Assembly: GCF_005048225.1 (NCBI RefSeq)
Contig: NZ_SUNI01000003.1
Coordinates: forward strand, 62,001-126,000
Direction of reading: 5' to 3'
Origin: Paracoccus gahaiensis
Lineage (GTDB): Bacteria > Pseudomonadota > Alphaproteobacteria > Rhodobacterales > Rhodobacteraceae
DNA: 64,000 nucleotides
The notes under the pieces are model-generated. The model saw nothing but the letters and a program-made list of their open reading frames with translations, searched no databases and was not told where the DNA came from. Positions within the stretch are counted from its first letter, which is position 1. The number at the start of each line of letters is the position of its first letter. Below, piece by piece: positions 30,729 through 32,935 of this stretch. The position numbers and the translations under genes were made by a program.

Positions 30729-32168
30729 ATGACGCAGATCAGGCTGACCAACACCCGCACCCGCACCAAGGACGTGTTCGTTCCTCTCGATGCGTCGAAC
30801 GTGCGGCTGTATCTGTGCGGGCCCACCGTCTATGACCGTGCGCATCTGGGCAATGCGCGGCCCGTGCTGGTCTTTGATCTGCTGGTGCGGCTCTTGCGCC
30901 ATGACTATGGCGCGGAGGCGGTGACCTATGTGCGCAACTTCACCGATGTGGACGACAAGATCAACGCCGAGGCGCAGCGCCGCAAGGCCGCCGGATCGCC
31001 TCTGACGCTGGAAGAGCTGGTCGCCGAGCGATCCGAGGAGACCATCGCCTGGTATCACGCCGACATGGATGCCTTGGGCGCCGATCGCCCCGATCACGAG
31101 CCCCGCGCCACCGCCTATATCGCCCAGATGATCGAGATGACCGCCGACCTGATCGCCAAGGGCCATGCCTACGCGGCCGAGGGGCATGTGCTGTTCGACG
31201 TGCGCTCCTTTCCCGCGTACGGCAAGCTGTCGGGACGCTCGGTCGATGACATGATCGCGGGGGCCCGGGTCGAGGTGGCACCCTTCAAGCGCGATCCGAT
31301 GGATTTCGTGCTGTGGAAGCCCTCGGAGGCGGATGTGCCGGGCTGGGACAGTCCCTGGGGCCGGGGGCGTCCGGGCTGGCATATCGAATGCTCGGCCATG
31401 TCGGCGGCGCTGCTGGGCCCCAGCTTCGACATCCATGGCGGCGGGCTGGATCTGCAATTCCCCCATCACGAGAACGAGATCGCCCAGAGCTGCTGCGCCC
31501 ATCCCGAGGCCAGCTTCGCGACCGTCTGGCTGCATAACGAGATGCTGCAGGTCGAGGGCAAGAAGATGTCCAAGTCCCTGGGCAATTTCTTCACCGTGCG
31601 CGATCTGCTGGATCAGGGCGTGCCCGGCGAGGTGATCCGCTTCGTGATGCTGTCGACGCATTACCGCAAGCCGATGGACTGGACCGAGGCCAAGGCGGCG
31701 GAGGCCAGTCAGACTTTGTCTAAATGGTATTGGCTTACCGATGGCGTCGGGGCCGGCGATTTGCCGGAAGGGTTTATCGATGCACTTGCCAATGATCTTA
31801 ACTGCAGTGGTGCCCATACCGCACTCAAGGCGGCTGCAAGGGCAGGACGTAACGCTGAACTTCGGGCAGGAATGGAATTCTTGGGTTACTGGCCGGCCGA
31901 TAGGAAGCTTTCCGCTTGGGCGCGTGACGAGGTGCAAAAGCAAGCGCACTTCGCTGAGCATAGTTATCCTCGCCTAGAACTGTCGGGTCTGTCTTGGAAG
32001 CTGCAAGGCGCTCGGGAGAAAGCAGCAGTTTCAAAAGATTTTTCTGAGGTTGATCACCTGAAGACTGCACTTCTCGCGGCGGGGGTAGAGGTGCGCATGT
32101 TGAAAGGCTCAGTTGAACTGGTGCCCGGTCCGAATTTTGACCCTGAAAAAATAGCAGGTTTGAATTGA
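30729..32168 (+). CDS. cysS: cysteinyl-tRNA synthetase, 3' third of anomalous composition
   Basis: Predicted 479-residue class I synthetase that charges tRNA-Cys. Motifs: zinc Cys and HIGH-like RAHLGNA (about 37-43), [16 protein letters not shown], and KMSKSLGN. The catalytic body is typical and GC-rich. From about base 31711 to the stop the codon use changes abruptly (many A/T third positions; I count about 55% GC for 31741-32160, against clearly higher values on both sides), yet the frame stays open and the encoded helical/anticodon end ([24 protein letters not shown]) is that of a normal CysS. I read it as a mosaic gene with a transferred 3' end. ATG at 30729. The stop overlaps the next gene's TTG start. 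Confidence 0.95.
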
Positions 32169-32935
32169 CCCTTGACGCCTGCACCGAGGCCCTGCGTCAG
32201 CACGATCCCGACCGCTTCGGGGCGGTGCTGGTGGCCGAGGTGCAGGATCGCCCCGCGCTGGTGACGCTCTATGCGCTGAACCTGGAGATCGCGCGGGCGC
32301 CGTTCCAGTCGGCGGAGCCGATGCTGGCCGAGATGCGGCTGCAATGGTGGATCGACCGGCTGGAGCAGATGGGCGCCGGCACCCCGCCGCCGCTGCATGA
32401 CGTGCTGACGCCGCTCTGGGAGGCCTGGGGGGCCGAGGCGGGCGCGCTTGCGCCTCTGGCCGAGGCGCGCAGGCGCGATTGCGAGCGCCAGCCCTTTGAC
32501 GGTCCCGACGAGGTCCTGGCCTATGTCGAGGCGACGGCGGGGGCGCTGATGTGGGCGGCCGCGCGGCGCTGCGGGGCGCCCGAGGGCACGCGCGAGATCG
32601 TCGCCTATCAGGCGCGCGGTGCGGGACTTGCCGCCTGGTTGCGCGCGCTGCCGCAATTGCAGGCAGTCCGGCTGGGTCTGGAACCGGCCCGCCCCGGGGA
32701 TGCGCAGGCCCTGGCCGAGCGCGCCCGCGAGGGGCTGCGGCTGGCCGCGCGGATGCATCGCAAGCTGCCGCGCCGGACGGCGGCGGCGCTCTATCCCGGG
32801 CCGCGCGTGCCCCGGCTTCTGTCCGAGGTGCTGGCCGGGCGCTCGGATCCCTTCGAGGCGGTGCCCCAGGTCACCCCCTTCCAGCGGCGCGCCTCGCTGG
32901 CGCGGCTGGCCCTGACCGGGCATTGGTGGCGCTGA
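32165..32935 (+). CDS. squalene/phytoene synthase-like protein (NDUFAF6-like)
   Basis: Predicted 256-residue all-helical protein of the isoprenoid-synthase superfamily. The block [36 protein letters not shown] (in two parts) is closest in feel to NDUFAF6, the complex I assembly factor. The aspartate-rich D-x3-D catalytic motifs of true squalene/phytoene synthases are not visible: [16 protein letters not shown] stands where the second should be. Hence it is probably not a terpene synthase (inference). Start is a TTG overlapping the cysS stop (TTGA); high-GC composition resumes here. Confidence 0.75.

Follow-up and report, generated by a model that had tools for sequence, protein, structure and literature searches.

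The window, a 64,000-nucleotide stretch of the Paracoccus gahaiensis genome, carries on its forward strand a chimeric cysS gene (30729..32168) for a cysteinyl-tRNA synthetase (CysRS) of 479 amino acids, which is predicted from homology to charge tRNA-Cys. The Pfam model of the catalytic domain, tRNA-synt_1e, covers residues 17-326 (E 8e-112), and the E. coli CysRS 1li5 matches residues 4-373 (E 2e-103). The two enzymes are alike in the catalytic domain and in the beginning of the following region, while the last 106 residues of the P. gahaiensis protein lie outside the reported match. The gene falls into three parts. The resident part (codons 1-317; 30729..31679), recognised by its identity to the sister species G040, encodes the catalytic domain and has the GC3 typical of the genus. 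It is followed by a joint zone (codons 318-335; 31680..31733), in which identity to the sister collapses and GC3 falls, and by a replaced tail (31707..32165), the tRNA-binding end of CysRS, which has a GC3 of 0.49 and belongs to tail type 2, also found in G028. No Pfam model, including the anticodon-binding DALR_2 and CysS_C, was matched by the tail alone at E 1e-3; the CysS tail of another genus aligns with it over residues 2-153 of 154 at 53% identity (E 2.5e-30). The next gene on the same strand (32165..32935; Pfam SQS_PSY) encodes a squalene/phytoene synthase family protein, has resident codon usage and starts with a TTG at 32165, overlapping the cysS stop by four bases.

The best GC3 change-point of cysS lies after codon 326 (31707 in the window), where GC3 falls from 0.86 to 0.49 with an LLR of 35.2, a value reached by none of 100 shuffles of the gene. 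GC3 is thus 49% over codons 327-479 (31707-32165), compared with 86% ahead of the change-point and 85-95% in the following gene, whose first 40 codons are already at 0.88. Codons ending in A or T make up 46 of the 326 before the change-point and 78 of the 153 after it (Fisher p 6e-17), and the GC content of 300-base windows is 54-56% over 31700-32199 and 73-78% for windows beginning at 32200-32700. The preliminary description had reported a low-GC, differently coded 3' third starting at 31711, and this position is accurate to within a few codons; it was equally right that the 479-codon frame is intact and that the shift ends at the overlapping next gene, and its view of the encoded end as a normal CysS C-terminus is borne out by the homology to the other-genus tail. 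Such a drop is exceptional in the part of the genome covered. The window and 40 further stretches (864 kb of P. gahaiensis, overlaps counted) were scanned for drops alone, with 100 codons required before and 80 after the change-point; of the 507 different genes tested, each 240 codons or longer, cysS alone had an LLR above 20 (31.9, measured here on an over-extended ORF). Four genes had 3' drops above 8, namely cysS, argS, glyS and an integrase-family gene.

The borders of the foreign tail are sharp at the DNA level. Between P. gahaiensis and G040, identity amounts to 93% for the first part of cysS (codons 1-325) and 95% for the next gene, but only 40% for the tails. DNA identity is 87-100% over codons 1-317 (nine segments compared), including 97% at codons 290-299 and 94-100% at codons 300-317; it then drops to 75% at codons 318-321, 67% at 322-325 and 50% at 326-339, and stands at 100% in the first 30 bases of the next gene. 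The left joint directly follows a conserved block of 10 residues and coincides with the beginning of a helix (residues 320-338) predicted in a structure model of low confidence (mean pLDDT 63), which served only to place the joint; we take this position to be the border between the catalytic and tRNA-binding parts. Abrupt breakpoints with resident flanks recur wherever tails differ in 23 further pairs of genes, except for L018/L013, where the downstream alignment failed (27-47%).

The two parts of the gene have conflicting histories. On a quick tree of the catalytic part (DNA of codons 1-305, 119 rows) P. gahaiensis groups with G040 (support 93, not starred) and a grouping with another species, G028, is rejected (AU p 0.0098). 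The tail tree (59 rows: each of the 29 tails outside type 0, plus every third one of type 0) places P. gahaiensis with G028 (support 99) and rejects the grouping with G040 (AU p 4e-9). In the same manner, the catalytic-part tree rejects the five species with type-1 tails as one clade (p 1.6e-10) and the type-3 pair G040 and G001 (p 0.00085), while P. gahaiensis with G028, G040 with G001 and the type-1 five all form clades on the tail tree with support 99-100. The type-4 pair L017 and L054, held together on the catalytic-part tree, is not rejected (p 0.25); on the tail tree G001 with G003 is rejected (p 0.00034) and G041 with G003 is not (p 0.14). Since the groups were named after the identity clusters had been seen, the AU p-values are flattering, and both trees are quick and have long branches; for the tail tree the program issued a warning about long branches, one of them being L087, which joins the pair of P. 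gahaiensis and G028. Three incomplete or broken genes (L121-L123) were omitted from the trees. The low-GC end is patchy among relatives, being present in 31 of the 119 rows, and parsimony on the catalytic-part tree requires 20 changes for the low-GC state and 28 for tail type. The suggestion that cysS recombined with a foreign 3' end is supported by both checks that the preliminary description had proposed, the comparison of the two CysS parts and the variation of the segment among related genomes, and it is the tree conflict, rather than GC alone, on which replacement is argued.

The recurrence of the tail swap in the genus and family is new beyond the first observation. CysS was matched in all 125 Paracoccus genomes at E 1e-3, three of the matches being weak or fragmentary; three of the 124 congeners (G086, G096 and G103) gave no usable gene, and the survey comprised the cysS genes of the other 121 and P. 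gahaiensis. Change-points with an LLR above 10 occur in 37 of these 122 genes, and drops of that strength at codons 300-352 in 32. Clustering of the tails at 55% identity, with L032 and L046 (tails of fewer than 100 residues) omitted, gave 23 clusters: a loosely linked common type of 90 members with subtypes, one cluster of five, four of two and 17 singletons. A GC3 drop is seen in 26 of the 30 genes with divergent tails (the others, without a drop at codons 300-352, being L018, L041, L043 and L099) and in 6 of the 90 with the common type. Identity was measured independently of GC, so that the GC drop and the sequence conflict check each other: when the catalytic parts of a pair share 92% identity or more, tail identity is below 45% in 57/68 pairs in which one or both genes have a low-GC tail and in 0/109 in which neither has a drop. 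Thus G041 and G003 share 96% of their first parts and 24% of their tails, and G001 and G003 97% and 31%. Conversely, distant species have tail types in common, with amino acid identities of 61% for P. gahaiensis and G028, 65% for G040 and G001, and 94% for G033 and G063; in the last pair the DNA of the tails is 92-100% identical and that of codons 1-299 only 80-93%. The cysS tail hence appears to have been replaced repeatedly in many relatives of P. gahaiensis, with the joint at almost the same position each time; the 17 singletons among the 23 clusters would presumably be foreign as well.

Other genes of the same genomes behave differently. GC3 change-points with an LLR above 10 were found in 0/30 MetRS genes, 0/60 cimA genes and 0/108 genes for the squalene-synthase homologue (trimmed genes). 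For MetRS, none of 435 pairs with first parts above 88% identity had tails below 50%; by the same criteria, 97/147 CysRS pairs did in 29 of the 30 genomes of this control. The MetRS and ArgRS controls were each drawn from the best 30 of 124 matching genomes and so lean to near relatives.

Could the drop be an intrinsic codon-usage feature of the 3' ends of synthetase genes, unrelated to transfer? Three of the four drops above LLR 8 in the 864 kb lie in genes for CysRS, ArgRS and GlyRS beta, and a drop also occurs in the six common-type cysS genes. The argS gene (L281 15086-16831; L292-L321; Pfam ArgRS family score 4e-20) turns low in GC3 towards its 3' end, from about codon 430-520 onwards, and 17 of 30 congeners have this drop; its tail protein nevertheless stays at least 77% identical, with a swapped tail in 0/378 pairs. 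The argS drop is an inherited codon-usage feature. A GC3 drop by itself is thus ruled out as proof of foreignness, and for this reason the case for a foreign cysS tail rests on the tree conflict. For cysS, the absence of swaps in ArgRS and the division between 84 of 90 common-type genes without a drop and 26 of 30 divergent-tail genes with one make an intrinsic origin highly improbable. Evolution of the tail in place, extremely fast and under an AT mutation bias through local hypermutation or relaxed constraint, would likewise dispense with transfer, and it can draw on the inherited ArgRS drop and on the lower conservation of cysS tails even in genes that lack one (median tail identity 0.76 at a catalytic part of 0.92-0.94, in a comparison binned up to 0.98). 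It does not account for distant species sharing tail types whose groups (types 1-3) the catalytic-part tree rejects, for tails of G033 and G063 that are more alike than the rest of their genes, for changes in tail length, or for the 109 drop-free pairs, none of which has tails below 45% identity. The tree conflict refutes it for the tail types shared between species, and overall we regard it as very unlikely.

The preliminary description had raised a past mobile-element insertion at this site, and here the evidence runs the other way. Integrative elements of the e14/icd type, such as e14 in E. coli icd, supply a protein gene with a new 3' end, which is foreign and AT-rich and keeps the frame intact, as is the case in cysS, where the joint moreover adjoins a strongly conserved DNA stretch; an element could have integrated within cysS together with a 3' end of its own, the remainder being lost afterwards. 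Unlike the e14/icd type, however, cysS shows neither an insert nor a displaced end. In all 122 Paracoccus loci cysS is followed by cimA (63) or by the squalene-synthase homologue (59), at a distance within 60 bases in 118 and never beyond 334; the only two gaps above 150 belong to broken genes (L032, 334; L046, 269). In other genera cimA lies within 223 bases downstream of cysS at 15/15 loci. With the next gene so near, an integrase would not fit on the downstream side, and no integrase or island was found on that side at any of the 122 Paracoccus or 15 other-genus loci. A native-tail model, which matched cysS itself in 124 of 125 genomes, detected no displaced native tail elsewhere in the 125 (up to 32 candidates per genome); apart from two hits with E above 1e-4, its extra matches came from second CysRS genes or from the fragments of a single broken gene. 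In viral contigs, none of the four tail queries used had a relative. Among plasmid records the matches were weak (5 and 10), lay on replicons of at least 0.86 Mb and were annotated as CysS where a gene is given; the L036 tail had none. The estimated joints also vary: 32/36 drops fall over codons 304-351 (the change-point being a mere estimate of the joint), and in G001 foreign-looking codons start earlier, near codon 307. Without an insert, a displaced tail or a viral copy the mobile-element idea is not supported, and a scar of this kind is improbable. In P. gahaiensis itself, cimA is missing directly after cysS (32165).

Most probably, then, the 3' third of cysS was replaced by that of a lower-GC bacterium, the tail being an exchangeable segment that has been swapped many times in Paracoccus and in other genera. 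Recombination between conserved flanks would exchange the tRNA-binding domain of CysRS: homologous recombination may have let donor DNA in at the strongly conserved end of the catalytic domain, and the second crossover may lie where the next gene begins, made either by homology or through a few bases (NTGAC) that the two genes following cysS in this family often have in common at their starts; this would yield an in-frame chimera and leave the neighbouring genes untouched. The data show the foreign tail of P. gahaiensis, its abrupt borders, the recurrence and the presence of one tail type in species that are not sisters; the recombination route and the AT-rich donors are proposed on that basis. 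The median position of all 36 drops with an LLR above 10 is codon 327. On the right-hand side, among the 74 loci readable by the search pattern, the squalene-synthase homologue begins with NTGAC in 45/47 and cimA in at least 15/27, and these bases, often common to the starts of both downstream genes, could have been used for the crossover. The four-base overlap of cysS with the squalene-synthase homologue occurs in 33/36 genes without a drop and 7/11 with one, the gaps of the remaining four being 24, 24, 9 and -11; further gaps to the next gene are 19 (L092) and 48 (L051).

The donor was probably another Rhodobacteraceae lineage. The closest tail to that of P. gahaiensis is from G028 (61%); outside the genus the best match is at 53%, which a single pattern-based scan covering 84,980 species did not improve on. 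Beyond the survey, 68 further cysS genes were collected (48 loci and 20 others; two not from Rhodobacteraceae), of which 15 have an LLR above 10 with drops at codons 309-335; three of the 15 are Paracoccus again, and the other genera include Nioella, Thioclava, Pseudaestuariivita, Sedimentitalea, Rhodobacter and Pseudorhodobacter. Outside Paracoccus the type-1 tail is present at ten loci (40-49% identity), where no change-point exceeds LLR 4.5, from which we infer that the distinct tails are old in Rhodobacteraceae and moved into Paracoccus later. The divergent tails have a mean GC3 of 0.57, as against 0.83 in the first parts of the same genes, and 20 of 21 divergent tail types have a GC3 of at most 0.70. 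Such values are found in 14/63 catalytic parts of other-genus cysS genes, a sample picked by likeness to the P. gahaiensis tail. Donors drawn evenly from the family should have left mostly GC-rich tails, contrary to what is seen; the donors may thus be mostly low-GC relatives or, alternatively, belong to an AT-rich pool not yet seen.

AT-rich donors keep alive the readings that invoke a mobile pool or an arms race. By analogy with surface antigens, the tRNA-binding end of CysRS could be under diversifying selection in Rhodobacteraceae, with an attacker or sensor (a defence system, a phage protein or the toxin of a competitor) escaped by swapping in any of numerous foreign tails drawn from an AT-rich pool, an explanation we consider unlikely. 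Phage CysRS genes were rejected as tail donors: 20 phage records match, and 17 of the 20 matches listed end at query residues 319-360, the other three comprising H6, which spans 4-462 at 35%, and two short fragments. Within E. coli no swaps of this kind were seen: the K-12 gene is matched over at least 80% of its length in 5374/5426 genomes, with identity reaching 95% or more in 5373, which leaves 52 of the 5426 without a match. In one E. coli genome (NZ_CP068591.1, 1481516-1482850) the only match to cysS reaches 83% over 88% and carries the annotation CysS/YqeB C-terminal-domain protein.

Homology-facilitated illegitimate recombination during natural transformation uses homology on one side and a few common bases on the other. 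The replacement of resident by foreign DNA in cysS resembles it, with the difference that the right-hand joint here is no more than suggestive. Aminoacyl-tRNA synthetases are textbook housekeeping genes and are used in phylogeny. Here an essential synthetase keeps its catalytic part while, by parsimony, its tRNA-binding tail has changed type some 20 or more times in one genus; such swaps mislead cysS-based trees, and the tails form a natural domain-swap series for tRNA recognition. Whether this reflects mere tolerance of different tails or a hidden attacker of CysRS is the question they pose. Among open-licence PMC papers we found no title or abstract opening that describes cysS tail swapping. 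The nearest general work concerns mosaic genes that arise by lateral transfer of gene fragments: Chan et al. (2009; PMC2639706) report breakpoints across many gene sets, with domains not being preferred units of transfer. The cysS case is similar in having a breakpoint inside a conserved gene after inter-lineage transfer, with differing histories on its two sides, and dissimilar in that the swaps recur in a single gene and at a single domain border, across a genus and a family.

Some smaller observations accompany the survey. The glyS gene of P. gahaiensis (GlyRS beta; L262 4677-6884, minus strand), with cysS and argS one of the three synthetase genes among the four strongest 3' drops in the 864 kb, has a mild fall in GC3 (0.92 to 0.79) and a DALR end. 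Six Paracoccus congeners (L228-L233) have a second CysRS of 51-57% identity; these genes were rejected as donors, five of the seven second-copy tails being only 31-45% identical to ordinary tails. Their neighbours are Zur-like, COG0523-like and other genes and, in one case, a ThrRS-like gene (named by eye), and the second copies are presumably the known type of zinc-starvation paralogue. G100 (L234) has a second CysRS gene on another contig (63-66% identity), perhaps a contamination. The cysS frame of G048 is interrupted at a run of G immediately after the joint (L032 3561-3660), with the native tail continuing in another frame, which is probably an assembly error; the cysS of G091 is likewise split.
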